Shown piece by piece: positions 1-20,645 of a stretch of 36,336 nucleotides of DNA. Position 1 is the stretch's first letter; every line of letters starts with the position of its first letter. The notes under the pieces were generated by a model. That model was not told the DNA's origin and did no database searches. It worked only from the letters and a program-made list of their open reading frames with translations. The stretch comes from Promethearchaeota archaeon (GTDB lineage: Archaea; Asgardarchaeota; Lokiarchaeia; Sigyniarchaeales; SOKP01). The stretch spans positions 1-36,336 of the forward strand of contig JAGXNQ010000011.1 in the NCBI GenBank assembly GCA_019894955.1, given 5' to 3'. The translations under genes and the position numbers were made by a program.

Positions 1-265
1 CAATAGCTTCATAATCTTCAACAAATGGTCGGACGGTAGTGGTCGAAATTCTATCATCACATTGTCTTAATACCGTGATTGCTTTCCAAGTAAGTTCTTT
101 CCCTTCAGTTCGTGCTTTTAATTCAAGCATTTGACCTAAAAATTTTGCTTCATTTAGAGATCTTGGAGGTTGACAACAACCATCACAACCTGCGATTAAT
201 ATTTTTTTATAGTCTTTAACCATCTCGTAAATTTCTGCTATATCTTTTAATTCGGTAATAATCAT
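1..265 (-). CDS. metV: MetV-like methylene-tetrahydrofolate reductase C-terminal/zinc-binding family protein (3' part outside window)
   Basis: The first 88 codons are visible and the gene runs off the left edge. The peptide has a short helical lead, then KKILIAGCDGCCQPPRS (Cys-rich loop where MetV proteins carry their C-x2-C-x3-C type motif), and later AITVLRQCDDR, a phrase typical of the family. ATG at 265 is preceded by AGGAG at 276-280, a good ribosome site. It follows hdrB by 72 nt on the same strand, so it is probably the next gene of the hdrACB operon. In acetogens MetV partners MetF and an HdrABC-MvhD complex to reduce methylene-THF. MetF may lie just beyond the window; this is inferred. 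Identification is from short motifs and context only, so a related Cys-rich electron-transfer protein cannot be excluded. Confidence 0.72.
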   Translation of the reverse strand, partial: MIITELKDIAEIYEMVKDYKKILIAGCDGCCQPPRSLNEAKFLGQMLELKARTEGKELTWKAITVLRQCDDRISTTTVRPFVEDYEAI

Positions 266-337
266 TTTCGTTTATCTCCTAATTACTTTTTCTCACTTTT
301 TTAATTTTAAATTATTTTGAGTAAAAAAATCTCATGA

Positions 338-1225
338 TTAGGTTGTTAATTTTTCAATTAACTTATTTGGCTTAACAGCTCTATTCATCAAGCTGAGATC
401 TTCTAATTTTACACCTAAAGCTATTGCCATCATTTCAGCTAAATATAAAACGGGAATATCTAATGTTTTACCTGTTTTACGTGCTGCGATCTTCTCCTTC
501 CGATCATATTGGGTTGTACAAGCTGGACATACTGCTATTAAAGAATCAACTTCTTCTTCGAGCTCACATAATTCTGTCATTTTGTCTTCTACTAATTTTT
601 CACCAATTTCATCTTGTAAACGGGCGCAAAAGCCACAACATTCTAATTTATTAGCAAATTCAACAGTTTTTGCTCCTAAATTTTGAATTATTATATCAAT
701 TTTTTCGGGTTTTTCTGGATGATCAAATTGCATTATTTTACTTGGTCTAATCAAATGACATCCATAATGTACGGCAATATTCATATCATCTAATGGTCTC
801 ACAATTGAACTCTTTATTTTGTCTAACCATTCAGGTTGACTAAATATTTCGACAAAATGATATACTTTTACTTTACCAGAATAAGTGTAATTAATCTTTT
901 TCAGGATAACATTGATTTTTTTAAGATATTCCTCATCCTCTTCTAATAGGACGCTAACTGTCTTCAATGTTTCGAAACAACCAGAACAAATCGTCAAAAT
1001 GTCTAAGCCCATTTTTTCTGCGATCGCAAGATTTCTTGCTCCTAATGCCACCCACGTATCCATATTCAAAGATTGTAATGATACTGGTTCTGGACAACAA
1101 CTAACGCCTTCCATTTCTGTCAGTTTTAAGCCTAAAATTCCTGCAACATCCCGAAAAGCTTTCTCTAGATGAGGTGATTTCAGGGGTATATTACATCCTG
1201 GAAAAAAGGCATATGATTTCTCCAT
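338..1225 (-). CDS. hdrB: Heterodisulfide reductase subunit B (CCG-domain protein)
   Basis: 295 aa, the usual size for HdrB. Two CCG domains are visible: C11, C43-C44 and C80/C83 in the first, and C156, C196-C197 (ECCGFC) and C233/C236 in the second. In characterised HdrB these cysteines bind two noncubane [4Fe-4S] clusters at the disulfide-reducing site. There is no membrane anchor, so it should be the soluble, cytoplasmic form. ATG at 1225 has GGAGG just upstream and lies 2 nt after the hdrC stop, so the two are translationally coupled. With hdrA-mvhD and hdrC it should form a bifurcating Hdr complex. The physiological substrate need not be CoM-S-S-CoB, because the gene after it is MetV-like and not a methanogenesis gene. 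Confidence 0.93.
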   Translation of the reverse strand: MEKSYAFFPGCNIPLKSPHLEKAFRDVAGILGLKLTEMEGVSCCPEPVSLQSLNMDTWVALGARNLAIAEKMGLDILTICSGCFETLKTVSVLLEEDEEYLKKINVILKKINYTYSGKVKVYHFVEIFSQPEWLDKIKSSIVRPLDDMNIAVHYGCHLIRPSKIMQFDHPEKPEKIDIIIQNLGAKTVEFANKLECCGFCARLQDEIGEKLVEDKMTELCELEEEVDSLIAVCPACTTQYDRKEKIAARKTGKTLDIPVLYLAEMMAIALGVKLEDLSLMNRAVKPNKLIEKLTT

Positions 1226-1227
1226 AT

Positions 1228-1758
1228 TTATTTATCCTCCTTATTTTTTGCAAGTTCACCTAACCCAGTTTCTTCAATTATAAATCTAATTTCTTCTAAA
1301 TCAGGCGGTACAATCTGTGGTAATCCCATTTTATTTCTTCTTCTATCAATGTTATCTTTTAAGCCACCAGTATAAGGAACAACAAATCCATTATTGTAGA
1401 TAGTTACTACAGTGCTTGAATACTCTTTAGGGACTGTACCTTCTTTCACGGCCATATTTCGGAGAAGAGCTAAGATAAATGAATAATCTACATTTTTTGG
1501 ACATCTTTCAGTACACCTATGACATAAAGAACAAGTCCAGATCGCTTGACTTGAAAGAACTTCATCCCTTAATCCTAAAAGGCATGACGCAACAACTCGA
1601 TGAGGTTGCATATCCACGTATTCAGTCACAGTACATCCAGAGGAACAAACTCCGCATTGTATACATTTTAAAAGTGATTTTGCTCCTACTTTTTCGCTTA
1701 TTTCGTACCGAAATTTGGTATCTAGATCTGATGCATTTTTTTTTACCATTTCTGTCAT
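1228..1758 (-). CDS. hdrC: Heterodisulfide reductase subunit C, 2x[4Fe-4S]
   Basis: 176 aa iron-sulfur protein. Two complete CxxCxxCxxxC-P type cluster motifs are present: C32/C35/C38/C42 (CIQCGVCSSGC) and C76/C79/C82/C86 (CSLCHRCTERCPK). HdrC passes electrons between the flavin subunit HdrA and the HdrB active site. Length and spacing match the soluble HdrC family. ATG at 1758 begins 3 nt after the hdrA stop, with GGAGG inside the end of hdrA, and hdrB follows immediately, so the three are co-transcribed. Nothing is missing from the cluster ligands. Confidence 0.93.
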   Translation of the reverse strand: MTEMVKKNASDLDTKFRYEISEKVGAKSLLKCIQCGVCSSGCTVTEYVDMQPHRVVASCLLGLRDEVLSSQAIWTCSLCHRCTERCPKNVDYSFILALLRNMAVKEGTVPKEYSSTVVTIYNNGFVVPYTGGLKDNIDRRRNKMGLPQIVPPDLEEIRFIIEETGLGELAKNKEDK

Positions 1759-1761
1759 TAT

Positions 1762-4700
1762 TTATGCTCCCTCCTTAGCTTTTTCTTTTTTGGGTTCAAT
1801 TTTATCACCAGTTTTAGGAATTGGTCCTAATTCTTTAACTTGATTCACAAATTGAGTAACAACTTGAGAGAATTTTTTTCCTTCACTTGCAGAAACCCAT
1901 TCTAAATGATATCGTTTGGGATTAATCCCAACCTTCTCAAGTAGTTCGTGGACTTCATTAAATCGTCTCAACATATCATAATTACCTTCTAAATAGTGAC
2001 AATCTCCAATATGACATCCTCCTATAAATACTCCATCAGCACCTTCCAAAAATGCTTGTAAAATGAAGCTTTTTGGGATTCTACCCGTACACATTACTCG
2101 AATTGGTCTAATATTAGTTGGATATTGAAACCTACTCACTCCACAAGTATCAGCCCCTGCATAACTACACCAATTACATAAGAAAGCAACTATTCTTGGA
2201 CGTTCATCTAAAAAGTCTCCCCTTGTAGCTTCTTTGATCATGGGATAAATTTGATCATCTGAAAAGTGACTCATTGTGATTGCACCAGCGGGACATGCCG
2301 CTGAACAATCTCCACAACCCTTACATAACAATGGATTTGATTCAGAAACCAATATGTCATTATCAAAATTTACACCAATGGCTCCAAAATTACATACTTC
2401 TTCACATTTTTGACAAGCTATGCATAAAGCGGGATCTACGATAGAAAATAAAGGCTCGGCCTCAACTTCTCCTGAAATAAGAGGTATTAATGCATGTGCT
2501 GCAGCACCTCTTCCTTGAGAGATAGAATCAGATATCCCTTTAGGTCCATGACATGTTCCTGCTAAATAAATTCCATCCGTTGCAAAATCCACTGGTCTGA
2601 GTTTAACATGTGCTTCCAAGAAATACCCATTTTGATCTCTGGCACACTTAATTTGTTCACCCAAAGCTTTGGTATCATAAGGAATTAATGGTGTTGATAA
2701 AACGACTTTATCAGCTTCAATTGTAAGATCCGTTTGAGTTAAGATATCTTTAACGTTGATATTTAATTTATCATTTGTATTGTCAAGTATGGGGTAATCA
2801 TTAAATCTTATATAGTTGACATTTTCACGGGCTTTCCAGTAATAAAGTTCCTCATCTGTTCCTACGCGAATATCTCGATATAAAACATATATATTTGAAT
2901 TCGGATATTTTTCCTTAACATATAAAGCATGTCGAATGGATTCAGAACAACAAATTAATGAACAATAAGTTACACCATTAGCTCCTTCAGGTTGTCTTGA
3001 ACCTACACATTGGATAAAGACAAGAGTTTCTCCATCTTTTAATTCATCATCCTTAAGTTTCTCGGACAACTCGAGTTGAGTCATGACATTTTCATTCTTT
3101 CCATAATCATACCATCCAACTGGTTTATACTCATAAGCTCCTGTCGCTATTAATATTACCCCTACGTTCAAATTATCAATTTTCTCATCCTTATTCTTGA
3201 CTTTTACATTGAAATTACCGATTGATCCTTTAATTTCAGCTATTTCAGAATTTAAATAAGTAGTGATATTTTTCATACCATTGAATTCGTGCAATCGATC
3301 ATCTAAAAACTGTTTAGAATCAATTTTATCAAAATTAATTTTATATATCAGATTCAGTTGACCACCCAGTTTATCCTCTTTTTCAACAAGATGAACTTTG
3401 AAACCTTTTTTGGCTATTTCCATTGCTGCACTTATTCCAGCGACTCCACCACCTACCACTAAAGCTTCGGGGACCACACTACCCTTGATTTTATATTCAG
3501 CTTTTTGAGCAGTTACTCGTGCAACTCCCATCCTAATTAAATCTTTAGCTTTATCAGTAGCTCTTGGATTATCATGCATGTGAACCCAGGAATCTAATTC
3601 GCGAATACTTACGAAATTAAAAAGATATTCATTTAACCCTGCTTCTCTAATCGTTTTTTGAAATAATGGTTCATGTGTTCTTGGTGTACAAGCTGCTACC
3701 ACAACTCTATTTAGATTTAATTCTTTAATCTTTTCTTTAACAATATCCTGAGTTAGTTGTGAACAACTATATTTATTTTCCATGGAGAATACTACATTAG
3801 GTAGTTTTTTCGTATATTCTACCAAGCTTGGGACATCCATATAGCCAGCAATGTTAATTCCACAACGACAGATAAACACTCCAATTCTAGGCTCATCTCC
3901 TGGTTTGACCGATATTAATGGTGGTAGAGAGATTTCCCTTTCTTCAGCACTTAGAGGTACAGCATGATTAGCTGCAAGAGCAGCAGCAGCGCCTGCTTTT
4001 GCTACTGAATTGGCAATATCATCAGGTGATTGACATGAGCCAGTCACATAAATTCCATCTCTTGTAGAACGAAGATCTTCAGTAGAAGCATTAGTTTTAA
4101 AAAAACCAAATTCATTTTGTTCAATATCTAAAATCTCGGCTAATTTTCCAGCATCCTTTCTAGGGATTACCGCATTTGCAAGTACAACTAGATCAAATTC
4201 ACTGGTTTCTACATCTCCAGTATCAAGATTTGCATGTTTCACATATAAATTATGATTTTTTGGATTTTCACGAATATCTCCTGGTATTCCTCTGTAATAA
4301 ATTAAACCATATTCATTCTTAGCTCGTTCAATGAACTCTTCTTGATTTTTTCCTATTATCCTTATATCATTAAAAAAGATTGTCACGTTAGTATCAGGGG
4401 AGTGTTCTCTAGTGACCACTCCTTCTTTTGTCTGATACATGCAACAAAATTTTGAACAATAAGAACATAAATCTTCATTCCTTGAACCTACGCAACTGAT
4501 AAATGCAACATTATGTACGTGTTCCTTATCTGAAGGACGAATCAACTCTCCTTCAGTAGGACCTGAAGCACTTAAAAGTCTCTCATATTGCATTGCTGTA
4601 ATGACATTTGGATATTCACCATAATGATACCGATCTAAAACTACAGGATCTAATTGATCAATTCCTGTCGCAACAATAATCGACGATACATCATATCCAA

Positions 4701-5247
4701 CAACTTCATCTTTCATTTCCCAATTAATAGCACCAGCTTCACATTCTTTTTCGCATAATTGACAGGCTCCTTTCGTCAAATAAAGACATTTTTCTGCATC
4801 AATTACAGCTTTACGCGGTACTGCTTGCGGAAAAGGAATATATATTGCTGTTCGATTACCCATACCTTCTTCAAATTCAGAAGGTATTTTTTTCATTGGG
4901 CACTTTTCAGAACAAGCTCCACAACCCGTACAACTATCCCAATCAACATACTTTGCTTTCTTTAAAACCTTTACACTGAAATTCCCAGGCTCTCCGGTAA
5001 CTTCTTGAACTTCTGAGTATGGAATTAGTTCGATATTTGGATGTCTAGATGATTCAACCATCTTGGGAGCTAATATACATATGGAACAATCTAATGTGGG
5101 AAATGTCTTATCGAGTTGTGCCATTCTACCCCCTACAGAAGAGGTTTTCTCCACTAAAATCACCTTATATCCTTGATCGGCTAAAGTAAGAGACGCTTCT
5201 ATACCCGATATTCCTGCTCCTATTACCATAATATTACTATTTGGCAT
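1762..5247 (-). CDS. hdrA: Tandem HdrA flavoprotein fused to MvhD
   Basis: 1161 aa, far longer than the roughly 650 aa of methanogen HdrA. Residues 1-450 form one HdrA-like flavoprotein unit: FAD loop GAGISG (10-15), ferredoxin ligands CTGCGACSEKCP (106-117), a second Cys group at 154-169, and SCVGSR plus CSYCSKFCC near 251-269. Residues 453-1000 form a complete second HdrA: N-terminal CRCGINIAG (460-468), a second FAD loop GGGVAG (599-604), CVGSR (747-751) and two C-terminal [4Fe-4S] motifs (942-953 and 975-985). Residues about 1017-1140 are an MvhD domain with FLCNWCSYAGADTCG and a later GCHIGDCHY. MvhD normally docks Hdr to a hydrogenase or another electron donor, so the protein should accept electrons and bifurcate them by flavin. 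The positions used for selenocysteine in some relatives are Cys here. It is the first gene of the operon. Confidence 0.93.
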   Translation of the reverse strand: MPNSNIMVIGAGISGIEASLTLADQGYKVILVEKTSSVGGRMAQLDKTFPTLDCSICILAPKMVESSRHPNIELIPYSEVQEVTGEPGNFSVKVLKKAKYVDWDSCTGCGACSEKCPMKKIPSEFEEGMGNRTAIYIPFPQAVPRKAVIDAEKCLYLTKGACQLCEKECEAGAINWEMKDEVVGYDVSSIIVATGIDQLDPVVLDRYHYGEYPNVITAMQYERLLSASGPTEGELIRPSDKEHVHNVAFISCVGSRNEDLCSYCSKFCCMYQTKEGVVTREHSPDTNVTIFFNDIRIIGKNQEEFIERAKNEYGLIYYRGIPGDIRENPKNHNLYVKHANLDTGDVETSEFDLVVLANAVIPRKDAGKLAEILDIEQNEFGFFKTNASTEDLRSTRDGIYVTGSCQSPDDIANSVAKAGAAAALAANHAVPLSAEEREISLPPLISVKPGDEPRIGVFICRCGINIAGYMDVPSLVEYTKKLPNVVFSMENKYSCSQLTQDIVKEKIKELNLNRVVVAACTPRTHEPLFQKTIREAGLNEYLFNFVSIRELDSWVHMHDNPRATDKAKDLIRMGVARVTAQKAEYKIKGSVVPEALVVGGGVAGISAAMEIAKKGFKVHLVEKEDKLGGQLNLIYKINFDKIDSKQFLDDRLHEFNGMKNITTYLNSEIAEIKGSIGNFNVKVKNKDEKIDNLNVGVILIATGAYEYKPVGWYDYGKNENVMTQLELSEKLKDDELKDGETLVFIQCVGSRQPEGANGVTYCSLICCSESIRHALYVKEKYPNSNIYVLYRDIRVGTDEELYYWKARENVNYIRFNDYPILDNTNDKLNINVKDILTQTDLTIEADKVVLSTPLIPYDTKALGEQIKCARDQNGYFLEAHVKLRPVDFATDGIYLAGTCHGPKGISDSISQGRGAAAHALIPLISGEVEAEPLFSIVDPALCIACQKCEEVCNFGAIGVNFDNDILVSESNPLLCKGCGDCSAACPAGAITMSHFSDDQIYPMIKEATRGDFLDERPRIVAFLCNWCSYAGADTCGVSRFQYPTNIRPIRVMCTGRIPKSFILQAFLEGADGVFIGGCHIGDCHYLEGNYDMLRRFNEVHELLEKVGINPKRYHLEWVSASEGKKFSQVVTQFVNQVKELGPIPKTGDKIEPKKEKAKEGA

Positions 5248-5300: not shown

Positions 5301-5412
5301 GAATTAACGATCAAAAAAAAAAGATATTGTTAATTCCAGTAAGATATAACTTTATAATGAGTATTAATGACTATTTCATATTTAAATTTTGCATGTAATG
5401 TGCGAATTTAAC

Positions 5413-5916: not shown

Positions 5917-6597
5917 ATAAAGGTATGCGTTTGTGGTCCATTGAGATGTGGTAAATCAACATTAATTAGTCATTTTGATGAAAAAGCCCTCAATGTTGAG
6001 GCAAAAGCGAGAGACAACAATTATTACACGGTTGGCATGGACCTCGGGATAGTTAAATTGAATGGATTTGATGTGTTTCTATTTGGAACACCAGGATTGT
6101 TAAGATTTAAAGTAATGAGAGATGTTATAGTACAAGGTACTGATGGGATCATTTTCATGTTTGATGCTGCCCATCCGGATAAGGACGAAGATGGGCTCAT
6201 AATTCTTAATGCCGTGAGAAAGCTTTTAATGCCTGAAACCCCAATAGTATATTTAGCAAATAAACAGGATATTGCAGGAGCTAGGCATCCGGAAATCGTC
6301 CGTTCCCAAAATTATTTACCATCGGATGCGGTTATATTCCCAACTACCACAAGAACTGGTGAAAATTTAGAAGAAGCATTAAAATATATTGTTAACCAAA
6401 TATATGATAATTATTCTTCACTACTTAAGGTGCTAAGAACTTACGAATCAGATATTGAAGGTCTTGCTAAAAAATTAGATAAAGATAATATCCAGATGCG
6501 AGATTTGTTAAATAACTTAGAAATAAAGAGATTTATTGACGTGGATCGATTTAATAGAACTTTTAAAGTTCGCGAAGGTATGAAGCTCTTAATGTGA
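5917..6597 (+). CDS. Small GTPase of the MglA/SRPRB-like (COG2229-type) family, probable ATA start
   Basis: 226 aa if read from ATA at 5917. The G1 loop is GPLRCGKS (7-14), the G2 threonine is in YYTVG (about 38), G3 is FGTPG (56-60) and G4 is ANKQD (114-118), with TTTRTGEN near the G5 position. The GTPG variant of DxxG is typical of this bacterial/archaeal GTPase group related to MglA and the SRP-receptor beta family. The C-terminal 60 residues are helical and charged. The start is unusual: the first ordinary start in frame, TTG at 5941, would cut the P-loop glycine away, and a stop lies at 5908-5910. Only ATT, ACG and ATA are available. AGGTGA at 5905-5910 sits at normal distance from ATA. 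Partner and pathway are unknown. Confidence 0.85.
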   Translation: MKVCVCGPLRCGKSTLISHFDEKALNVEAKARDNNYYTVGMDLGIVKLNGFDVFLFGTPGLLRFKVMRDVIVQGTDGIIFMFDAAHPDKDEDGLIILNAVRKLLMPETPIVYLANKQDIAGARHPEIVRSQNYLPSDAVIFPTTTRTGENLEEALKYIVNQIYDNYSSLLKVLRTYESDIEGLAKKLDKDNIQMRDLLNNLEIKRFIDVDRFNRTFKVREGMKLLM

Positions 6598-8595: not shown

Positions 8596-8702
8596 TATCC
8601 ATGAAGGGGGAAAAAGTGTGGAAGAATTAAAACTATATACTAGTTATTTAAATTATCAAGAAAAAAAAGATATAATAAAAAAGAGTACTTATGAAAGGTT
8701 CT

Positions 8703-10271
8703 TTAGGAACCTTTTGCATTAATGATCCGATCTACTCGTAAAATTAGATTTGCTAATCCACTACCAGACTTAATGACATGTTCGATTAAAGCAGCAGGCT
8801 CTATTATGCCTTTTTCGTAATTATTGCCAATAGAATTGGTTAATGTATCAATGCCAACCCATTTATCAGCATCAGACTTATGAGCTGCTCGTAAATCAGT
8901 CATATTTTCAATCTCATCTAGTCCGGCGTTTTTGATCAATGTTTTAGGGATTTCTTCAAGAGCAAGAGCGAAAGCGGTGATAGCTAATTGTTCTTTGCCA
9001 CTAATTTCATTGGCATATTCTCTTAAATGTTTAGCTAATTCGATGTATATAGCACCCCCACCAGCAACAACCTTCTTAGTATCAGTGACTTTTGCAACAA
9101 CAGATAAAACATCATGCAATGTTACTTCTGTCGTGCTAAGAATTTTATCTAAACCACCTTTCAACAAGATAGAAACAGATTTGGGATTCTTACACCCTGT
9201 GAATTGCGTGTATTCATTCTTGTCGATTTTTTGGAACTGTATGCTTTCAGCATAACCCAACTCATTTTCACTTAAAGAAAAGAGATCATCGATTCTTTTA
9301 GCTCCAGTGGCTTTAGTAACTGCTTTAATATCACTGTCTCCCAAATTTTTAATCGCAGCGATTCCTTCTCTTGCTAAAAATGCACCAAATTTATCTGAAA
9401 TATCTTTATTGTTGACAACCATATTTACTCCTAAATCTTTGAAGATTTTAAGGTAATCATGCAATATTTTTTCTTCTTGATCTAGGAATTTCTGTATATC
9501 AGCAGGATTAGTAATGCGAATTTCTCCAGAAATTTCTGTTTTAACCACATCCAATTTCTTCCTAATGACAGCGATTTTAGCATTCTTAACGATGTCAGGC
9601 ATCATGGCATTTACTTTTTCCTTTTCAATATAGACTCCATTGATCAGTTCTGTATCTTTGAGTGATTTTCCAGGAGCCTTAACTATTTTTACGTTTCCAA
9701 CTTTAGAAAAAGTACTACCTTCTTCTTTTATGAGATTTACTGCTTTAACAGCGATTTCTGCGAAAAATTCTTTTAAGCCCATAACGTCTTTGGAATTCAT
9801 TGCTGTGATTGCAACTTTTTTCAAGATTTCTTCATCATCTGCGGAGATGTTTTCAGCGATTTTATCCACAATTGAAAGAGCTTTTTTAGCTGCTAAATGA
9901 AATCCATGTGTAATGGGTTTAGGATGAATATTTTGTTCGATTAGTTCCAGTGCATTTGCTAATAATTGAGCAGCAAAAATGACAGCAGATGTGGTCCCAT
10001 CGCCTATATCATCATCTATTGATTTAGCGACGTTTACCATCATATTTGCGGCCACATTTTCAATACTCAAGCTTTTCAAGATTTCAGCGCCATCGTTTGT
10101 AATTGTTACATCACCAGTTCCATCAACAAGCATTTTGTTCATTCCTTTTGGTCCAAGTGTTGATCTAACAGTTTCTGTTATCGCCATCATTGCATTAATA
10201 TTTTGCATTCTTGCTTCTTTTTCCTTAGTTTGCTCAGTTCCTTCCCTTAATATCAATATTGGAACAGACAT
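8703..10271 (-). CDS. thsA: Thermosome subunit (group II chaperonin)
   Basis: 522 aa. The ATP-site motifs TLGPKGMNKML (38-48) and DDIGDGTTS (87-95) are intact, and a VVAGGGAIYIELAKHL stretch lies in the second half of the equatorial domain. The protein folds client polypeptides in an ATP-driven double-ring complex without a GroES cap. It lacks the long Gly-rich tail seen in some thermosomes and ends in IINAKGS. ATG at 10271 is supported by AGGTGA at 10278-10283 on the minus strand. It is a stand-alone gene with its own TATA-like element. Other subunits of a hetero-oligomer may be elsewhere; the subunit letter is arbitrary. Confidence 0.96.
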   Translation of the reverse strand: MSVPILILREGTEQTKEKEARMQNINAMMAITETVRSTLGPKGMNKMLVDGTGDVTITNDGAEILKSLSIENVAANMMVNVAKSIDDDIGDGTTSAVIFAAQLLANALELIEQNIHPKPITHGFHLAAKKALSIVDKIAENISADDEEILKKVAITAMNSKDVMGLKEFFAEIAVKAVNLIKEEGSTFSKVGNVKIVKAPGKSLKDTELINGVYIEKEKVNAMMPDIVKNAKIAVIRKKLDVVKTEISGEIRITNPADIQKFLDQEEKILHDYLKIFKDLGVNMVVNNKDISDKFGAFLAREGIAAIKNLGDSDIKAVTKATGAKRIDDLFSLSENELGYAESIQFQKIDKNEYTQFTGCKNPKSVSILLKGGLDKILSTTEVTLHDVLSVVAKVTDTKKVVAGGGAIYIELAKHLREYANEISGKEQLAITAFALALEEIPKTLIKNAGLDEIENMTDLRAAHKSDADKWVGIDTLTNSIGNNYEKGIIEPAALIEHVIKSGSGLANLILRVDRIINAKGS

Positions 10272-10277
10272 TAATTT

Positions 10278-10321
10278 TCACCTATATTTCTCATGATTTA
10301 TTTTTTATTATTATTATAAAT
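10278..10321 (-). promoter_or_regulatory. Thermosome promoter and ribosome-binding site
   Basis: A minus-strand TATA-like ATTTATAATA (10321-10312) would place the transcript start near 10290. AGGTGA (10283-10278) lies 6 nt before ATG. This gene gives the clearest view of the Shine-Dalgarno sequence used in this genome. Confidence 0.5.
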
Positions 10322-10490
10322 TCATTAATTTTCTGGATTTTAAGAATTTTATGATTTAGGGATCTTTAAAAATCCTCTTGTCTATTATCATTAGAAATGC
10401 TCCGATTATAAAAAATAAGAAGAAAATGATAGAATATCCATTTTTTATAATCAAAATAAATAATTAGCTAAATTGGTATCTTTAGTTACT

Positions 10491-10892
10491 ATGAAAGAAA
10501 CAGAAGATAAGAATAAAGATGACGAATGGCGCAAGAAACTGACTAAAGAGCAATATCAGGTATTGCGAAATAAAGGCACTGAACGTCCATTCACGGGAGA
10601 GTATTGGGATAATCGTGAGAAAGGAGATTATGTTTGTGCTGGATGTGGAGCACTTTTATTTGATTCTGAGACGAAATTCGACTCGGGATGTGGTTGGCCA
10701 AGCTTCTACAGCCCTAAAGATGAAAAAAACATTGAATCTAAAAAAGATCGAAGTTTGGGTATGTCTCGTGAGGAAGTTTTATGTAAAAAGTGTGGTGGTC
10801 ATCTGGGTCATGTATTTAAGGATGGTCCGAAACCAACCGGCCTAAGATATTGCATAAATTCAATTTCTTTAGATTTTAAAAAAACGAATTAA
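10491..10892 (+). CDS. msrB: Peptide-methionine (R)-S-oxide reductase MsrB
   Basis: 133 aa from ATG at 10491; a TTG 18 nt upstream is in frame but adds only a nonconserved lead. Zinc ligands are C49/C52 (CAGC) and C98/C101 (CKKC). The catalytic cysteine is C121 in [23 protein letters not shown] and GGHLGHVF are the family's conserved phrases. The enzyme reduces methionine-R-sulfoxide in proteins using thioredoxin-type reductants, repairing oxidative damage in the cytoplasm. No signal peptide is present. It is a single gene, convergent with the LysR regulator. An MsrB in an otherwise anaerobic-looking genome suggests occasional oxygen exposure (inference). Confidence 0.95.
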
Positions 10893-10946
10893 AAAGGAAT
10901 AAAGTAAAAACTCTTTTTTGAAATTTCACAAAATAGCAGATTCAAG

Positions 10947-11837
10947 CTATTTAGATAAAGTATCCCAGAATTTCTTCTTTAGAATTGAAAGCGCTTTATT
11001 TTTAGGTTTTATAAAAAAAATGTCGCGAGATGTAATAGTTGGATATTCTTCAATTTCTAAAAATGTAATAAGATTTGCATTCACGGCTTTTTGTGCAATT
11101 GTCTCACTTAGAACAGAAACATAATTAGATTCAGAAATTGCAGATATTATGGAATCGTTATTATCCATGGCTAATTTAATTTCTAACTTATTATTTTCGA
11201 GAAAATTATGTTCGAAAATATCGCGAGTTCCTGATCCCTTCTCTCTACTAATAAATGGGAATTTTAATAATTCCTTAAAAGATATGCTTTTATTCTTTTT
11301 TGCAAGTTCATGGTTAGGAGAACATATAAACTTTAAGTTTTCTTCTCCAATTTTGATAGCTTCAAAATTTTCTTCTTTATATCCCATATAACTTCCAATA
11401 CCAGCAAAATCAACCTGGTTTTTGGTGATTAGATCGAGGGAATGCTCAGAATTATTGATCATTATTTTAAAATTAGCATGGGGATATTGTTCTCCGAATT
11501 GAGCAATAAATTTAGGTAAAATATGTGACCCCGGAAGTGTTGAAGCTGAAATGATTATATCTTCAGTGATTTTATCACTAAATTGTGCTAATTTTTCCTT
11601 GCTTTTATCATATAATTCTATGATTCCTTTAGCATATTCAAGGAATATAGTACCTTCCTCGGTTAATTCAAATTTTCGAGTTGTTCTATTGATTAATTTA
11701 ATATCTCCATAATCACTCTCTATCTGTGAAATACGATGAGATAATGTACTTTGAGACGTTTTTAAAATATTAGCAAGTTTAGAAAAACTTTTTAACTCTT
11801 CGAGAAGGATAAAAGTCCTTAAAAATTCAATATTCAT
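10947..11837 (-). CDS. LysR-family transcriptional regulator
   Basis: 296 aa, standard LysR length. The N-terminal 60 residues form the winged helix (FLRTFILLEELKSFSKLANI, SQSTLSHRISQIE, INRTTRKFELTEEG). The rest is a type-2 periplasmic-binding-protein fold that senses a small molecule. LysR proteins are common in bacteria and patchy in archaea, so transfer from bacteria at some point is plausible. It is divergent from the dsrE-tusA pair with 122 nt between starts, the classic arrangement for a LysR controlling its neighbour. Inferred role: regulation of sulfur-relay genes. The effector is unknown. Confidence 0.92.
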   Translation of the reverse strand: MNIEFLRTFILLEELKSFSKLANILKTSQSTLSHRISQIESDYGDIKLINRTTRKFELTEEGTIFLEYAKGIIELYDKSKEKLAQFSDKITEDIIISASTLPGSHILPKFIAQFGEQYPHANFKIMINNSEHSLDLITKNQVDFAGIGSYMGYKEENFEAIKIGEENLKFICSPNHELAKKNKSISFKELLKFPFISREKGSGTRDIFEHNFLENNKLEIKLAMDNNDSIISAISESNYVSVLSETIAQKAVNANLITFLEIEEYPTITSRDIFFIKPKNKALSILKKKFWDTLSK

Positions 11838-11898
11838 ATTTAAATAATCAAAATCTGGACCATTTGTTAATTTATCGATATTCTTAATAAATGAATAC

Positions 11899-11914
11899 GA
11901 AAAAATTAATATAT
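11899..11914 (+). promoter_or_regulatory. Probable promoter for dsrE-tusA
   Basis: The purine-rich GAAAAA followed by ATTAATATAT resembles an archaeal BRE plus TATA box. Transcription would begin near 11935, followed by a short leader containing TAGGATT twice (11934-11940 and 11943-11950 region) before ATG 11960. It lies in the LysR/dsrE divergent gap, so a LysR site may overlap it. Confidence 0.35.
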
Positions 11915-11959
11915 GCCCTCATTTAGTTTTATATTAGGATTAGTAGGATTAAAATAAAA

Positions 11960-12319
11960 ATGTCTAAAAAAGCGAAAGTATTTACTATTGCAATTGGCTC
12001 AAGTCAATATACAAAAGAAAGACCTTATACTTTACTTAGATTTGCCTATACTGCTTTATTGGAAGGCCATAAAGTCAACATATTTTTAGTGGAAGATGGT
12101 ATTTGGGTTGGAAAAAAGGGTCAAAACCCAAAAAATTATGATAATGTAGGAAAATGGTTAGTAGATGTAATTAATGAAGGGGCAGAAGTACTTGTCTGTG
12201 GAGTATGCATGAAAGCTCGAGGAATGTCAGAAGAGGAATTATTACCGGGATGTGCCAAGACTACGATGAATGGTTTTTTAGATATGTGCGTGAATGCAGA
12301 TAGTGTAATATTTTGTTGA
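11960..12319 (+). CDS. DsrE/DsrF-like sulfur-relay protein
   Basis: 119 aa, the size of a single DsrE domain. The N-terminal beta strand KVFTIAIGSS and the strand-turn VNIFLVEDGIWVGKKGQ are typical of the family. Five cysteines are present; C80 and C83 (VLVCGVCMKARG) occupy the usual reactive region, with C98, C110 and C119 further on. DsrE-type proteins accept and pass on persulfide sulfur. It is followed 10 nt later by a TusA-like gene, and the two are probably co-transcribed. In characterised systems DsrE and TusA exchange sulfur, serving tRNA thiolation, molybdopterin or dissimilatory sulfur metabolism. No dsrAB or hdr-like sulfur-oxidation genes lie beside it, so the direction of sulfur flow cannot be told. 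Confidence 0.85.
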   Translation: MSKKAKVFTIAIGSSQYTKERPYTLLRFAYTALLEGHKVNIFLVEDGIWVGKKGQNPKNYDNVGKWLVDVINEGAEVLVCGVCMKARGMSEEELLPGCAKTTMNGFLDMCVNADSVIFC

Positions 12320-12329
12320 AAACTAAAAG

Positions 12330-12566
12330 GTGGTTAAAATAGTAGAATTAAAAGTTTTAGATTGTTCAGATCTTGTTTGCCCTTTACCGGTAGCTAAGAC
12401 AAAAAAGATGCTTAATTCAATGCAAAATAGTGAAATTCTTGAGGTTAAAGGCGATTTTAGTGAAGCAGGTGAAAATATTAAAAGATTTGCAGAATCTCAT
12501 GGGCATAAAGTTGTCGAATTTAAGTTAGAGGGAGAAAATTACTCAATCATCATCAAAAAGAAGTGA
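12330..12566 (+). CDS. tusA: TusA/SirA-family sulfurtransferase
   Basis: About 75-78 aa. The signature CPLPVAKTKK follows DLV, with the active-site cysteine in CPxP. The remaining sequence has the alternating strand/helix pattern of the TusA fold, ending in a lysine-rich tail. TusA carries sulfur as a persulfide between cysteine desulfurase or DsrE and an acceptor. I give the GTG at 12330 as the outer start, but that GTG lies inside the ribosome site GGTGGT (12329-12334). The more natural start is ATA at 12339, 4 nt after the site, giving a protein that begins M-V-E-L-K-V-L-D-C. It is paired with dsrE and convergent with the Lrp gene, ends 9 nt apart. Confidence 0.88.
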   Translation: MVKIVELKVLDCSDLVCPLPVAKTKKMLNSMQNSEILEVKGDFSEAGENIKRFAESHGHKVVEFKLEGENYSIIIKKK

Positions 12567-12575
12567 TTACTCTTA

Positions 12576-13070
12576 TCATACAACTAAAATCGAGGACGTA
12601 TTCTTATATTCCTTTAGAACCATATTAGATGTAGTTTTTGTAACCCATTCTTCTTCGTTGATAGACCTTATAAAATCGTGAACATCTTCAGGTTCTTTAA
12701 ATCTACAAATTAACGCTGCAGATTGCTCACCAGTAGTGTGAAAAATCGAACACACTTCTGGTTTCTCCTTAAATCCTTCTAAAATTTCTGAAGTATGCTT
12801 ACCATCAATTTGAACCCGAATGAGAAAAGTAAATTTATATCCAAGCTTAATATTATTGAGATTAAGGGTATATCCTTCTATAATTTGATTCTCCTCAAGC
12901 TTTGAGATTCTATTATGGATAGTTCCTATAGATATACCCAACTCTTCTTGTATTACTCTATAAGATGTTTTTGCATTTTTCTGCAGAATTCTAATTATAT
13001 CTCTATCAATAGAATCAAGTGACTTTTCCTTTTTCACATTTTTTTTTTGATTTGGATTTGTAGGTACCAT
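12576..13070 (-). CDS. Lrp/AsnC-family transcriptional regulator
   Basis: 164 aa. After a basic 15-residue lead comes the winged helix (LDSIDRDIIRILQKNAKTSY, then SIGTIHNRISKLEENQIIEGYT) and then the C-terminal RAM domain (residues about 75-150), which oligomerises and often binds amino acids. Lrp/AsnC proteins are the commonest archaeal regulators and usually act near their own promoter or on amino-acid genes. ATG 13070 lies close to a TATATAA-like sequence. Specific targets cannot be inferred from the neighbours. It converges on tusA. Confidence 0.93.
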   Translation of the reverse strand: MVPTNPNQKKNVKKEKSLDSIDRDIIRILQKNAKTSYRVIQEELGISIGTIHNRISKLEENQIIEGYTLNLNNIKLGYKFTFLIRVQIDGKHTSEILEGFKEKPEVCSIFHTTGEQSAALICRFKEPEDVHDFIRSINEEEWVTKTTSNMVLKEYKNTSSILVV

Positions 13071-13237
13071 TATATAACCCTTAAGTAGTAATAACGAAAT
13101 AACAATATATTATATTTTGAAAAATATTTAAAGCCTACCTTGAAACGTGAAAAAGTATTAAAAAAGTTTTATTTTCTTGAAAAATCTAAATCTGAATTTA
13201 AAAGGGATATTCCGAGAATTCCTAAATTTTATACAAA

Positions 13238-14392
13238 TTATTTAATTTTTTCATTTATGATTGATTTCAGATCAATCTTCTCCTTGAGTAGATAATCGTC
13301 TAGTACGTCTTTTGCCTTTTCTCTTTGCTCTTGGTGTGTTTTAAGGAATTTATTAATCTTTTCTATGAGATCACCTTTACACTCTCCGCATAAAAGATCT
13401 CCACCAGTACATCTTGTTTGAATATTTCTAATTTCATCATCATCTAAAGTGAAAAGCATGAAATGATATTTATACACTGAACAGATTGAAGGATTTCCGC
13501 CTAATTCTCTTTGTATTTTTGCACTTGCTTGTCCACCTGTGAATGCATTATTTACTTTTTTTTTTACCATATCCGGAGTATCTATTGTGAAGATAGCAGT
13601 ATGTTCTACAGAAGCTGACATTTTTCCTCCTTGTTGAAGACTTGGTAGAAATATGCATTGTATAGAGGCAGGTTTGTAATAACCAAGTTTTGGTAATACG
13701 TCTCTTGATAGACGAAAATGAGGATCTTGATCTACAGCGTGAGGGATTATGCAAGGAACATTCTTCTTTTCAATAATACTTTTAATTATAGCTGGAACAG
13801 TTTGGATACTTGTATAAAAAATTTGTCCAATATTTGCGCTATTAGTCAATCCAAAAGTTGCTTTAATAGTAGAGTAAGTTATTTTTTTAGCAATATGTAA
13901 TGCATTTTTATAGAGAGTACCTGCAAGATCAATATCTGAAAAGATAAAGGTCTTTTTTGGATCAAATCCTAGAGCAATAATATCTAATGCATTCTCATAT
14001 GAGTATTTATAAGCATCTTCCAATGATAGGGAGGGATTAAATAGAAATTTCTCATCGTCTGTTAATTGAAACCACAATTCCACATCAAATTTATCTTGAA
14101 GCCACTTTGTAAAAATCCAAGGCATAACGTGACCTAAATGTATATTTCCAGAGGGACCTCTTCCTGTATATAGATAAAAGGGATTTCCTTTTTTATATTC
14201 ATCTAATATCCAATTCAGATCTCTATGAGCAAAAAAGATTTTTCTTGTTAGAAAGGGATGAATTTCATTTGTAATTTCCTTCAAATAAGACAATAACTTG
14301 TCGTCAATTGGTTCTATTCCAAACTCTTGTATTAATTGATCATAATCTACTTCTCCACTTACTTCCCACGGAGTAACAATAAAATTAGGCAT
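13238..14392 (-). CDS. trpS: Tryptophanyl-tRNA synthetase
   Basis: 384 aa from ATG 14392. The archaeal/eukaryotic TrpRS phrase VTPWEV is at residues 6-11, the HIGH-type motif HLGH at 85-88, TDDEKFLF at 111-118, and the KMSAS loop at 257-261 (GGKMSAS). It joins tryptophan to tRNA-Trp in the cytoplasm. The open frame continues up to a TTG at 14503, adding 37 basic residues, but this extension has no family counterpart and contains a TATA-like TATATAAT. ATG 14392 is preceded by GCTGAT, the same element as at pckG, so I prefer it. A CxECK pair (TCGGDLLCGECKG-like region near the C-terminus) may bind zinc. Confidence 0.95.
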   Translation of the reverse strand: MPNFIVTPWEVSGEVDYDQLIQEFGIEPIDDKLLSYLKEITNEIHPFLTRKIFFAHRDLNWILDEYKKGNPFYLYTGRGPSGNIHLGHVMPWIFTKWLQDKFDVELWFQLTDDEKFLFNPSLSLEDAYKYSYENALDIIALGFDPKKTFIFSDIDLAGTLYKNALHIAKKITYSTIKATFGLTNSANIGQIFYTSIQTVPAIIKSIIEKKNVPCIIPHAVDQDPHFRLSRDVLPKLGYYKPASIQCIFLPSLQQGGKMSASVEHTAIFTIDTPDMVKKKVNNAFTGGQASAKIQRELGGNPSICSVYKYHFMLFTLDDDEIRNIQTRCTGGDLLCGECKGDLIEKINKFLKTHQEQREKAKDVLDDYLLKEKIDLKSIINEKIK

Positions 14393-14594
14393 TAGCTTAT
14401 CAGCAGTAATTTTCAAATTATTTTTATTTGATAATCTTTCCTTTTTTTTAGGTTTTAGGGTTTTTAGCCAATTATATATCCTTCTTATACAACCCAAAAA
14501 CAAATAAAAATATGTTCGTTCTTAGTAGATATCGCGAGAGGAAATTTGTAGAGATTAAAAAGAAATATAAAAAATACTTCAGAATAAATTAATC

Positions 14595-15524
14595 TTAGGT
14601 TAAAAGCGGCGTTAATATTTTTTCAATTGCATTTAGAAAATCAGTAAACTTTTCTAGAAATTCATCTTTTAGTGATTCTTTAATAATAACTGATATAAAT
14701 AGTGAATTTTCAGCAATTTTTAATCGGTGAAGATATGAAAGCAAGTTTGCTCCAACATTGGAGAAATTATAATCAGCTTCGTACGATTCCTCTAACATTC
14801 TTTTAAGTAAAAAGAGATGATGCTTAATAGATTCTATGAGTTCAGTATAAAGATCAAGTTCGACAAACTCGCTATAATATTCACTAATTATAATTCCATT
14901 TTTATCAAAAACAATCAAAGAGGAGCAATTAAACTCATTTAAATATTTTTCCAATAGTTCTGAGAGATCATAAAATTTATCATCAAAGATAGACAAACCA
15001 TATGAAATCAATTGTACAATAGAAATTATATCATAGATTGATGTTAGTTGGAATAATATCTTAACAGATGGATATTTTTGGCTAATTCCTTCTTTTAAAT
15101 CATTAATAATGCTGATAGTCTTCTCTTTCCCCCTGATTTCTGGATCGTATTTATGAAATGAAATAATTAAAGGAATATCCAATTTATTTTTCATAAAATG
15201 ATGTAAAATGGAATCTAAATATTCCAATGATATATTAAATCTTTCTTCATCTTGGATATCTATAATATATACCATTAAATCAGTTCCTGCGAAATAAAGA
15301 TCTTGTTTCTTCTTGTATAACTCTCGAAACTTAGTCTGTCCACCCATATCCCAAAAAACTATTCGATTTTTTAAAAATTGGGTCGCATGGTATTCCACTC
15401 TAATGGTGGGTTTGAGTGAGACGATCTCTTTATCAAAATCATACTTCTTATCTAACGCTGTTAAAATTGAAGTTTTACCCGCGTTATCTAGTCCAGCAAT
15501 AATTACTTTGAAAAATTCTTCCAT
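14595..15524 (-). CDS. Rag/Gtr-Arf-like GTPase with C-terminal roadblock-like domain
   Basis: 309 aa from ATG 15524; the frame opens 19 codons earlier but the preceding residues are not conserved. G1 is GLDNAGKT (11-18), identical in style to Arf. G3 is WDMGGQ (58-63). G4 is HKYD (124-127), the variant used by Rag GTPases (HKxD) instead of NKxD. G5 is TSIYD (161-165), close to the Rag TSIWD. Residues about 185-305 form a second domain starting LIVFDKNGIIISEY, characteristic of roadblock/longin-type dimerisation domains, which Rag proteins also have. Rag GTPases act as obligate dimers on membranes in eukaryotic nutrient sensing. The archaeal role is unknown. No lipidation signal is obvious. 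It lies upstream of trpS on the same strand with 202 nt between them. Confidence 0.88.
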   Translation of the reverse strand: MEEFFKVIIAGLDNAGKTSILTALDKKYDFDKEIVSLKPTIRVEYHATQFLKNRIVFWDMGGQTKFRELYKKKQDLYFAGTDLMVYIIDIQDEERFNISLEYLDSILHHFMKNKLDIPLIISFHKYDPEIRGKEKTISIINDLKEGISQKYPSVKILFQLTSIYDIISIVQLISYGLSIFDDKFYDLSELLEKYLNEFNCSSLIVFDKNGIIISEYYSEFVELDLYTELIESIKHHLFLLKRMLEESYEADYNFSNVGANLLSYLHRLKIAENSLFISVIIKESLKDEFLEKFTDFLNAIEKILTPLLT

Positions 15525-15751
15525 AAATTTCACGACAATAATTTTAAGATTCTTGGTTATTTTCGAACTTTTTAATATCAAGTAAAATTCATTATTTTTA
15601 ATCTTATGGTCTTCACGTTTAGAAACAAGATCACGCGTATTCTTTAGATAATATTCCAGTGTTAATCACGAGTCATATAAATAACACTCTCATTTTAATT
15701 AAGCAGCTTTTTTTATATCGTCAATTGAATTAATTTAGGAAGGTATAAAGA

Positions 15752-15976
15752 ATGGAAAGCAAAAAAAACAATTTTTTACAATATTTAGAATATCAAATTA
15801 GCATCAAGAATAGAAGTGAGCAATTTATTAGAAAAATCCCTTCATTTGAGTCACAAATAAATGATAAAAACTCAAAAATTATTAAAATGATTGATGAGTT
15901 TGATGATATTCGCCGCAGAGAAGTTTATACATTATTGGTTGAAGAATTCACAAATGTAATTCAAAAGAAGAAATAA
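15752..15976 (+). CDS. Small charged helical protein, unknown
   Basis: 74 aa, not recognised. It is rich in Lys, Glu, Asn and Ile, predicted almost wholly helical, without cysteines, signal peptide or membrane segment. The start is well supported: AGGAAGGTAT lies 5 nt before ATG 15752. It is divergent from the Rag-like GTPase, with 227 nt between starts, and convergent with yjbQ (3 nt between ends). A phrase such as DEFDDIRRREVYTLLVEEF could be an interaction helix. Functional linkage to the GTPase is possible but unproven. Confidence 0.65.
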   Translation: MESKKNNFLQYLEYQISIKNRSEQFIRKIPSFESQINDKNSKIIKMIDEFDDIRRREVYTLLVEEFTNVIQKKK

Positions 15977-15979
15977 AAA

Positions 15980-16402
15980 TCATTCTCCAATAATTTGGCA
16001 ATAAATTGTCCGATTTCGAGGTTTTTCGTCAAATTCACAGAAGACAATCTGTTGCCAAGTGCCTAGAATTAACTTTCCTTTGTGAATAGGAAAAGTTTCA
16101 GATGTTTTAATAAGAAAACTTCTCACATGACCTGAACCATTATGGTCTCCCCAAGTTCTATGATGCTTATAATCATATTTATATGGTATAATTTTTTCTA
16201 AAAATTCATTTATATCATTCTGAACCAATCCAGGTTCATATTCAATCGTTGTAATGGCACCAGTGGATCCAGCAATGTGAACGTTAACAATTCCATCGGT
16301 TATATCACTATTGTTAACAGCATTTTGCACTTGAGTAGTTATATCTATTATATCACAAAATGGATTTGATTTTATCTCAAAAGTTTTTAATGTAACTGTC
16401 AT
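15980..16402 (-). CDS. YjbQ/UPF0047-family protein (secondary thiamine-phosphate synthase-like)
   Basis: 140 aa, full length for the family. Conserved phrases are present: HIAGSTGAITTIEYEPG (residues about 43-59), a His-rich DYKHHRTWGDHNGSGHVRS (76-94) and the LGTWQQIVFCEFD end strand (113-125). Bacterial YjbQ has weak thiamine-phosphate synthase activity; the true role in most organisms is unclear. The His cluster suggests a metal or phosphate site. It is a single gene with its own upstream region, divergent from the unknown 140-aa gene at 16524. Confidence 0.9.
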   Translation of the reverse strand: MTVTLKTFEIKSNPFCDIIDITTQVQNAVNNSDITDGIVNVHIAGSTGAITTIEYEPGLVQNDINEFLEKIIPYKYDYKHHRTWGDHNGSGHVRSFLIKTSETFPIHKGKLILGTWQQIVFCEFDEKPRNRTIYCQIIGE

Positions 16403-16523
16403 TTTAAATAACTCAATTTAAAATTCTTTTTATTATAGAAAGTAAATACATATGAAAAGTTTTTTCAGAGATAATCCCCATATAATATTATCAACGTAAT
16501 TGATACGAACTAGCTGAAAAAAT

Positions 16524-16946: not shown

Positions 16947-16954
16947 CTTATCTA

Positions 16955-17821: not shown

Positions 17822-17837
17822 CTTTTATTGATATTTA

Positions 17838-19298: not shown

Positions 19299-20645
19299 TT
19301 GAAAGGTGATGTTATAATTAAGAAAATTATTGCTGAAATTCGAGAGAATTTAATGGAGCATCACGACTGGTTTAGTAAGTCGATACCGTTAATCGCCTCA
19401 GAAAATATCACGAGTCCCGCTGTTGATGAAGCTTGTAATACTGACTTCAGCCACCGATATGCTGAAGGATGGCCGAAAGAAAGAGTATATGCAGGATGTC
19501 GCTACATTGATAAAGTAGAAGAAATTTGTATGGATTTGGCGAATCAATACTTTAGATCAACTCATGCTGATGTTCGACCAATTTCTGGAGTAGTAGCTAA
19601 CTTGACAATGTATAATGCATTAACTTCAGATAATAATGGGAAAATGTGTTGCATGTCAATTATACGAGGAGGGCACATATCACATGGTCCAAGATTTGCG
19701 AAGAGTGGAAGAGAAATTTTTGGAACTGCTGGAACTACAAGAGGTTTAAATATTGAATATCTTGCTTTTGATAATGATGAGATGAATTTAGATATAGATA
19801 AATCAGCAAAAATCATTAGAGATTTCAAACCCGAATTAGTACTTTTTGGGGGTTCTGTATTTTTGTTTCCCCATCCAGTAAAAGAACTCGGTGATGTTGC
19901 TAAGGAAGTGGGAGCGTATGTGGGGTATGACGCGGCTCACGTTGCTGGTTTAATAGGATCAGGATATTTTCAAGATCCTCTAAGAGAGGGGGCAGATGTA
20001 ATGACACTTAGCACTCATAAAACCCTTCCTGGACCTCAACATGGTACATTAGTTTCGAACAGAGAGGATTTGGTGGATAGATTAAAATCATGTGCCTTTC
20101 CAGCACTTTTGTCAAATCATCATTTACATAATGTAGCTGGTTTAGCTATTGCTTATGCTGAAATGCTAGAATTTGGAAAAGAATATCATAAAAAAATAAT
20201 TGATAATGCTAAGGCTCTTGGTCAAGCTTTAAATGAGAGAGGTTTATCAGTTTTAATGGAACATAAAGGTTTCACAGAATCTCATCAAATTTTAGTTGAT
20301 GTTGCAGAATATGAAAAATCCATCGGTTTAGGTGGCGATATAGAAAAATTATTGGAATCGAGTAACATAATATTAAATAGAAACTTACTTCCACGTGATC
20401 TCACTGAAGGAAGGCATTATCAAAACCCAGGTGGTTTGAGAATTGGAACTTCTGAAGTTACCAGATTAGGGATGGGAAAAAGTGAAATGGTAGATATTGC
20501 TGAATTCATAAAAAAAATCATACTTGATAAGAAAGATCCCAAAAAGGTAAAGGAAGAAGTTATTGAATTTCGAAAAGCTTTCCAAGAAATCCATTATTGT
20601 TTTGATAGACCTAATAAAGCATACGAATACTTGAAATTTTATTGA
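19299..20645 (+). CDS. glyA: Serine hydroxymethyltransferase, archaeal type
   Basis: About 443-448 aa. The PLP lysine is in STHKTLPGPQHG (K241 counted from the TTG), the PLP-ring aspartate in YDAAHVAGL (210-218), and LIASENITSP (31-40) and HRYAEGWP (52-59) are classic SHMT phrases. FGGSVFLFPHPV and the end EYLKFY match archaeal enzymes, which often use tetrahydromethanopterin derivatives rather than THF. The enzyme interconverts serine and glycine and feeds or drains C1 units. I give TTG 19299 as the outer start, but AAAGGTGAT lies after it, and ATA at 19314, 3 nt after GGTGAT, gives a better-placed initiator and a natural N-terminal length. A hairpin follows the stop. Confidence 0.95.
   Translation: MKGDVIIKKIIAEIRENLMEHHDWFSKSIPLIASENITSPAVDEACNTDFSHRYAEGWPKERVYAGCRYIDKVEEICMDLANQYFRSTHADVRPISGVVANLTMYNALTSDNNGKMCCMSIIRGGHISHGPRFAKSGREIFGTAGTTRGLNIEYLAFDNDEMNLDIDKSAKIIRDFKPELVLFGGSVFLFPHPVKELGDVAKEVGAYVGYDAAHVAGLIGSGYFQDPLREGADVMTLSTHKTLPGPQHGTLVSNREDLVDRLKSCAFPALLSNHHLHNVAGLAIAYAEMLEFGKEYHKKIIDNAKALGQALNERGLSVLMEHKGFTESHQILVDVAEYEKSIGLGGDIEKLLESSNIILNRNLLPRDLTEGRHYQNPGGLRIGTSEVTRLGMGKSEMVDIAEFIKKIILDKKDPKKVKEEVIEFRKAFQEIHYCFDRPNKAYEYLKFY

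Follow-up and report, generated by a model that had tools for sequence, protein, structure and literature searches.

Reductases that combine MetV and MetF with subunits of the heterodisulfide reductase (Hdr) type are already known. In secondary accounts of Mock et al. 2014 (PMC5861303, PMC8515935, PMC9430772), the 6S-type methylene-tetrahydrofolate (methylene-H4F) reductase of Moorella thermoacetica is described as a MetFV-HdrABC-MvhD complex. An enzyme of this kind is also known from Sporomusa, and pull-downs with the Sporomusa ovata proteins revealed HdrA/HdrB/MvhD-MetF and MetV-HdrA contacts (PMC9430772); a MetFV/HdrA/MvhD cluster was mentioned for Ca. Syntrophoarchaeum. Lokiarchaeota are related to the archaeal ancestor of eukaryotes, and in the published account of their tetrahydromethanopterin (H4MPT) Wood-Ljungdahl pathway the Mer step forms a gap (PMC8027215): a typical mer is missing from six of six Loki-3 metagenome-assembled genomes (MAGs) and a distant COG2141 protein was proposed instead. 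Here we analysed a stretch of 36,336 nucleotides (the window) from a Promethearchaeota archaeon of the class Lokiarchaeia (assembly GCA_019894955.1, contig JAGXNQ010000011.1), one end of which carries an hdrA-mvhD, hdrC, hdrB and metV operon. Based on its gene content, its conserved linkage, its domain anatomy and the absence of canonical Mer and Fhs from the family genomes, we consider it somewhat probable that this operon encodes a soluble Moorella-type ('6S') MetVF-HdrABC-MvhD methylene-pterin reductase, which would replace the F420-dependent Mer in the H4MPT Wood-Ljungdahl pathway of the family.

Organization of the hdr-metV operon

The operon is a tight run on the minus strand, as noted in the initial annotation, which extends from position 5247 down to the contig end with successive gaps of 3, 2 and 72 nt (Table 1). 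The contig corresponds to the whole window and there is no sequence to its left; the assembly consists of 244 contigs and is 88% complete, and its near relatives with names are Ca. Lokiarchaeota MAGs. HdrA, HdrB, HdrC and MvhD are each homologous to their counterpart in the methanogen complex (5odc), and the matches of HdrB to TIGR03288 and of HdrC to TIGR03290 are under the equivalog cut-offs. No hydrogenase gene was seen within the operon; this and the 1161-aa fusion rule out an ordinary methanogen HdrABC-MvhADG.

The last gene of the run is cut by the contig end. Its product, a stub of 88 aa, gave no Pfam or NCBIfam match in profile searches and shares 74-85% identity with the N-terminal part of MetV proteins of 231-236 aa from the same family. 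In these relatives the full MetV ends with a PF12225 domain (99.5 bits, NGPCGG present) and is directly followed by metF (PF02219). The truncated gene is indeed metV, as had been supposed, and the expectation that metF is next in line holds in the relatives, the operon's own copy presumably lying beyond the contig end. This metF was not found in the own assembly, where the sole MetF found belongs to a stand-alone metV-metF pair on another contig (C181). Upstream of hdrA, a conserved regulator site was sought and only a weak TATA-like element turned up.

Table 1. Features of the operon and the glyA gene in the window.
Feature	Position (nt)	Strand	Remarks
metV 5' part	2..265	-	First 88 codons; frame runs off the window edge, rest lost to the contig end
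GCDGCCQPPR motif	161..190	-	MetV residues 26-35; marks Hdr-linked MetV
hdrB	338..1225	-	295 aa; two cysteine-rich CCG domains
hdrC	1228..1758	-	176 aa; two-cluster ferredoxin-like protein
hdrA-mvhD	1762..5247	-	1161 aa; double HdrA fused to MvhD; HdrA2 model 1183 bits
MvhD domain (FlpD, PF02662)	1825..2193	-	176 bits; C-terminal in the HdrA fusion; presumed electron-donor docking site
HdrA unit 2	2218..3927	-	Residues 441-1010; N-terminal Fe-S domain, FAD domain, C-terminal ferredoxin domain (8 Cys)
HdrA unit 1	3928..5247	-	Residues 1-440; thioredoxin-reductase-like FAD domain with inserted ferredoxin domain; without N-terminal and C-terminal ferredoxin domains
K274 (K409 of 5odc HdrA)	4426..4428	-	Bifurcating-flavin signature; 44/44 homologues
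E222 (E356 of 5odc HdrA)	4582..4584	-	Bifurcating-flavin signature; 44/44 homologues
Inserted ferredoxin domain of unit 1	4741..4932	-	Residues 106-169, 8 Cys; presumed exit to free ferredoxin
TTTAAATAT TATA-box-like element	5378..5386	-	Some 130 nt before the start of hdrA; partial conservation in relatives; weak, in AT-rich DNA
glyA (SHMT)	19299..20645	+	Best solved relatives 4bhd/4uqv, 462 bits, next 213; C1 gene outside the operon

Conserved linkage of metV to hdr genes

Linked loci were identified by scanning the named genomes with a linked MetF, which gave 54 loci, 52 of them with upstream sequence. Each of these 52 informative loci of the Hdr-linked type has hdr genes immediately upstream of metV, and metF directly follows metV with a median gap of 0 nt. 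The order hdrAA-hdrC-hdrB-metV-metF is visible or consistent in 34 of the 52 loci (26 fully visible); of the others, 16 have a second order, described below, and two have hdrA-metV-metF. In addition, an Lrp/AsnC-type gene, a candidate regulator of the operon, comes directly after the Hdr-linked metF in 49/54 loci. When 214 genomes of the phylum were scanned, the linked MetV N-domain scored above 150 bits in 51 of the 61 listed family members and, outside the family of the window, in four more genomes related at the order or class level. A chance neighbourhood is ruled out by the 52/52 linkage and its conservation in dozens of genomes, and contamination by the finding that dozens of Lokiarchaeota MAGs share the operon.

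A related MetV N-domain (CDGCxGIYxxGG) is likewise encoded next to hdrA in further Asgard families, where the genes are arranged differently: one locus (L179) reads hdrA unit 1-hdrA unit 2/mvhD-metV-metF, another (L180) metV-hdrAA-hdrC-hdrB. The linkage of metV to hdrA is thus kept through rearrangement, which argues for a joint function.

Two classes of MetVF

Like the genome of the window, most relatives carry both the Hdr-linked and the stand-alone class of MetVF. The motif CxGCxQPPR is present in the N-domain of 52/52 Hdr-linked MetV proteins and of 0/38 stand-alone ones. The mean identity of this domain is 76% within the linked class, 58% within the stand-alone class and 26% between them; for the C-domain the values are 69%, 77% and 50%, respectively. 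No solved relative of MetV is present in the PDB. The private motif and the divergent N-domain are as expected of a docking surface, and the linked MetV N-domain may be the surface that docks to HdrA. The Hdr-linked MetF proteins form one clade (SH-like approximate likelihood ratio test, 99), save that of a Helarchaeota locus (L113). Residues E24, D116 and Q197 (numbering of the L024 MetF), which correspond to the catalytic positions of the E. coli methylene-H4F reductase, are invariant in both classes.

Some further observations were made at individual loci. The stand-alone metV-metF of the genome of the window (C181, 11102-14446) is followed by a dihydrolipoyl-dehydrogenase-like gene, and such a gene is also found near stand-alone metVF in several other Lokiarchaeota loci; dihydrolipoyl dehydrogenase was also tried as a partner for the Clostridium ljungdahlii 2S MetFV, unsuccessfully (PMC8515935). 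One MetV (L041, G043:C253, 2-682) has the Hdr-linked motif, as GCDGCFQPPR, yet no hdrA upstream, and its neighbour on the opposite strand is Lrp-like.

Anatomy of the HdrA fusion and a possible electron path

The HdrA fusion was aligned with the solved HdrA (5odc_A), and conservation was followed in 44 full-length homologues, 26 of them of the window type (type A). We observed that the two HdrA units are complementary. Cys57, which aligns with Cys197 of 5odc HdrA, exists only in unit 1, and the cysteines of the N-terminal Fe-S domain (Cys460/462/495/520) exist only in unit 2, whose FAD domain lacks the Cys197 equivalent and the inserted ferredoxin domain and has S728 and R772 in place of E and K. 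Such a division of features between the units fits the internal heterodimer that was suggested for HdrA3/4 of anaerobic methanotrophic archaea (ANME; PMC9012536). The unit anatomy is nearly invariant in the 26 window-type homologues, the features of unit 1 being constant except for one gap, and the eight cysteines of the inserted ferredoxin domain are kept in 44/44 homologues. In comparison with 5odc_A, the NAD(P)H-binding GltD-like insertion is absent from both units. An AlphaFold model of the fusion (mean pLDDT 75, pTM 0.79) has the HdrA fold, with 5odc_A as best match in a fold search; the stretch leading up to and including C57 (residues 42-57) has a pLDDT below 50.

From these features we infer that the proteins form an electron-bifurcating complex. 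The double HdrA would fold as an internal pseudo-dimer, in which a cysteine from unit 1 would complete the Fe-S cluster in the N-terminal domain of unit 2; the one bifurcating FAD with the signature would sit in unit 1. The donor, probably a NiFe hydrogenase and possibly a formate dehydrogenase, would dock at the MvhD domain, from where electrons would reach the FAD of unit 1. One electron would then pass through HdrA/HdrCB to the MetV clusters, the MetF flavin and methylene-H4MPT, and the other would leave through the inserted ferredoxin domain of unit 1 to ferredoxin. This scheme of entry, split and exit is proposed because of the homology to HdrABC-MvhADG (5odc) and to the acetogen MetVF-Hdr enzymes. 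The reaction should be reversible, with confurcation when methyl groups are oxidised.

Alternatively, the HdrA module could be a non-bifurcating relay that passes electrons from ferredoxin or a hydrogenase to MetVF without coupling. Indeed, in C. ljungdahlii the stand-alone MetFV takes its electrons simply from reduced ferredoxin (PMC8515935), and for the Moorella enzyme a second electron acceptor is still given as unknown (PMC5861303); in the present fusion, one of the two flavins is without its signature residues. However, E and K are retained at the other flavin in all 44 homologues, and each of these has a complete inserted ferredoxin domain; moreover, two flavins, HdrBC and MvhD would be needless in a relay, and we regard this reading as quite unlikely.

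The one-carbon pathway and the pterin

The pathway genes were counted in 37 genomes of the family, that of the window included, with a threshold of 150 bits for full-length CdhC and the TIGR03555 cut-off (348.7 bits) for Mer. Mch was detected in 36/37 genomes, Mtd in 33/37, FolD in 34/37 and full-length CdhC in 30/37. Fhs was found in 0/37 genomes and canonical Mer over the cut-off also in 0/37, the best Mer-like protein reaching 167 bits. By contrast, methanogen controls and class-level relatives pass the cut-off as true Mer, Helarchaeota included, for which Mer has been published (PMC6478937). The genome of the window has matches for Mch, Mtd, FolD and NiFe hydrogenase; full-length CdhC was not found in its 88%-complete assembly.

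The absence of Fhs and of any Mer over the cut-off indicates that CO2 is reduced through the H4MPT branch of C1 metabolism. As Mch and Mtd are also nearly universal, MetVF would reduce methylene-H4MPT, and the Hdr-linked MetVF more likely completes the H4MPT branch than runs a folate pathway. In addition, three of the four Mtd-negative family genomes are also without linked metV (tail probability 0.016, with no correction for the relatedness or incompleteness of the genomes). These three, G025 and G033 (genus g3, nearly complete) and G011, have kept Mch and possibly reflect a joint loss of Mtd and Hdr-linked MetVF. Of the mixed folate/methanopterin metabolism proposed in the initial annotation, the presence of both systems is supported (Mch and Mtd for H4MPT; FolD for folate). 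The archaeal serine hydroxymethyltransferase (SHMT) claimed there is present, its closest solved relatives, 4bhd/4uqv (Table 1), being the SHMT of M. jannaschii, which we take to work with H4MPT. The label 'bacterial-type' given to the reductase is loose; in a published MetF tree, Asgard MetF lies within a group of uncultured archaea (PMC9012536).

Several points weigh against an H4MPT-linked bifurcating enzyme. The E/K signature of bifurcation is a rule of thumb. The potentials are -414 mV for H2, about -500 mV for ferredoxin and about -320 mV for methylene-H4MPT, so that H2-driven bifurcation to methylene-H4MPT is near break-even and could run either way; with methylene-H4F (-200 mV, PMC5861303) it is clearly downhill, and for this reason a folate reading is retained. 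With FolD in 34 genomes, C1 units on folate are present too, so that the enzyme might act on either pterin. Stand-alone MetVF or the Mer-like paralogues (at most 167 bits; candidates in PMC8027215) might perform the H4MPT step. Finally, two Helarchaeota genomes (G053 and G054) hold both Mer and Hdr-linked MetVF, so the latter is not a simple substitute for Mer.

These points lead to a second reading, in which the same complex reduces methylene-H4F supplied by SHMT and FolD while stand-alone MetVF or a divergent Mer-like protein takes the H4MPT step. Besides the easier energetics, FolD and the stand-alone class, it is favoured by the use of H4F by the Moorella and Sporomusa enzymes (PMC9430772). 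Since the family lacks Fhs, has nearly universal Mch and Mtd, and lacks the Hdr-linked type in three of the four Mtd-negative genomes (with the uncorrected tail probability given above), we find it somewhat unlikely.

In a third reading, which differs from the reductive H4MPT enzyme in direction only, the complex is mainly oxidative: methyl-H4MPT, from acetyl-CoA or methyl substrates, and reduced ferredoxin would be oxidised, with H2 or formate passed to a syntrophic partner. Hdr-complex chemistry is reversible, and for ANME-1 it has been proposed that electrons derived from MetF undergo confurcation (PMC9012536). NiFe hydrogenases were detected in 54 of the 58 genomes searched, and several family genomes have them on contigs with Mch or Mtd. 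On the other hand, CO2 assimilation by Loki-3 was seen by isotope probing (PMC8027215), and the sequence does not fix the direction; we judge a mainly oxidative role possible, though less than probable.

Mer and MetVF can sit side by side. At one locus (L134, G047:C26, 2-2951) mer is directly upstream of metV-metF, and at another (L135, G057, 8670-19000) a stretch of about 10 kb contains metVF and mer together with an hdrA-mvhD/hdrC/hdrB-like set.

Exchange of the Hdr engine in one clade

In the 16 loci with the second order (L087, L090-L104), the genes upstream of metV are (hdrC-hdrB-)hdrA'(431 aa)-hdrA''(555 aa)-mvhD(256 aa)-hdrAA(1153 aa). In MetF these loci resemble the window type, with about 75% identity to the reference, but in HdrAA they share just 46-49% identity with the window type, and this HdrAA groups with an unlinked Helarchaeota HdrA. 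A constraint joining both Lokiarchaeal HdrAA types was rejected (approximately unbiased (AU) test, p = 6e-7), whereas the MetF proteins of both share one clade. We observed that both units of this hdrAA, as well as hdrA' and hdrA'', retain E/K. Since the HdrAA types are apart and MetF is in one clade, one Lokiarchaeota clade has swapped the electron-input Hdr module behind a retained MetVF, going from one to up to four signature flavins. The combined proposal, a bifurcating HdrABC-MvhD-MetVF replacing Mer in the H4MPT methyl branch together with this exchange of the whole engine, is tentative and in our view just short of probable.

In four second-order loci hdrBC is not next to the module, nor is it next to metV in L113 and L179, and it may lie elsewhere in these genomes. 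This suggests that MetV interacts directly with HdrA rather than with HdrB.

Other genes of the window

An FmdE-domain protein (PF02663, 122 bits), of a family named after the formylmethanofuran dehydrogenase operon, is encoded at 27274-27810 (+). Two Ras/Arf/Gtr-like small GTPases, typical of Asgard archaea, are found at 5941-6597 (+) and 14595-15581 (-), the second with a long C-terminal extension. A calcineurin-like (PF00149) phosphatase at 34962-35882 (+) resembles eukaryotic-type PPP Ser/Thr phosphatases. An Eco57I/TaqI-like DNA methyltransferase with a specificity domain is encoded at 32869-34881 (-), with no adjoining restriction gene recognised.

Significance and comparison with known systems

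What is new here is the signature of the MetV N-domain, the exchange of the engine in one clade and a concrete candidate for the mer reported missing in Loki-3. In the open-access literature, to which the search was confined and which leaves out subscription papers, neither this operon in Asgard archaea nor the MetV signature nor the engine exchange was found described. The operon is a conserved and testable candidate for the Lokiarchaeal Mer step, alternative to the COG2141 proposal. If it fills this step, the step would change from an F420-linked reaction to a site of energy coupling, and the enzyme would be the first H4MPT-linked MetVF-Hdr enzyme, with a bifurcating complex in which the engine has been exchanged. 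The CxGCxQPPR motif of MetV and the E/K pattern of HdrA could serve as sequence markers for annotating such complexes elsewhere.

The methanogen HdrABC-MvhADG (5odc), with which all four Hdr and MvhD proteins share homology, differs by its single-unit HdrA of about 650 aa, its symmetric dimer, its hydrogenase subunits MvhAG and its heterodisulfide acceptor. In the fused HdrA3/HdrA4 of ANME, Cys197 and the N-terminal domain are likewise in complementary units (PMC9012536); the unit with the N-domain comes first there and the Cys197 unit first here. Ca. Syntrophoarchaeum also has an archaeal MetFV clustered with HdrA and MvhD, with a predicted replacement of Mer (PMC9012536), but it is a different lineage, and HdrBC, a MetV signature and an engine replacement do not figure in that brief mention. 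The HdrCBA-MvhD-MetVF of S. ovata is similar in its two flavin domains, in the order of the units and in having E/K in only one of them (PMC9430772). Unlike the protein described here, its HdrA has no inserted ferredoxin domain and its mvhD is separate, and the enzyme is membrane-linked via an unknown partner.

The likeness to the acetogen MetFV-HdrABC-MvhD complex noted in the initial annotation is clear for the Moorella enzyme, as far as it is described in the accounts cited above. In both cases metV and metF (here in the relatives) lie beside hdrA, hdrB, hdrC and mvhD, HdrA has two thioredoxin-reductase-like flavin domains with the unit without N-terminal domain first (PMC9430772), and the class is separate from the 2S MetFV. 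According to the same accounts, the Moorella HdrA has 1487 aa, against 1161 aa including MvhD here, and E/K in both flavins, against one here. The Lokiarchaeal fusion has kept the inserted ferredoxin domain and has mvhD fused to hdrA; its host has H4MPT genes and no Fhs, and its MetV N-domain is distinct. It also lacks the GltD-like NAD(P)H domain of Moorella, but this domain is absent in Sporomusa too and so does not define the 6S class.

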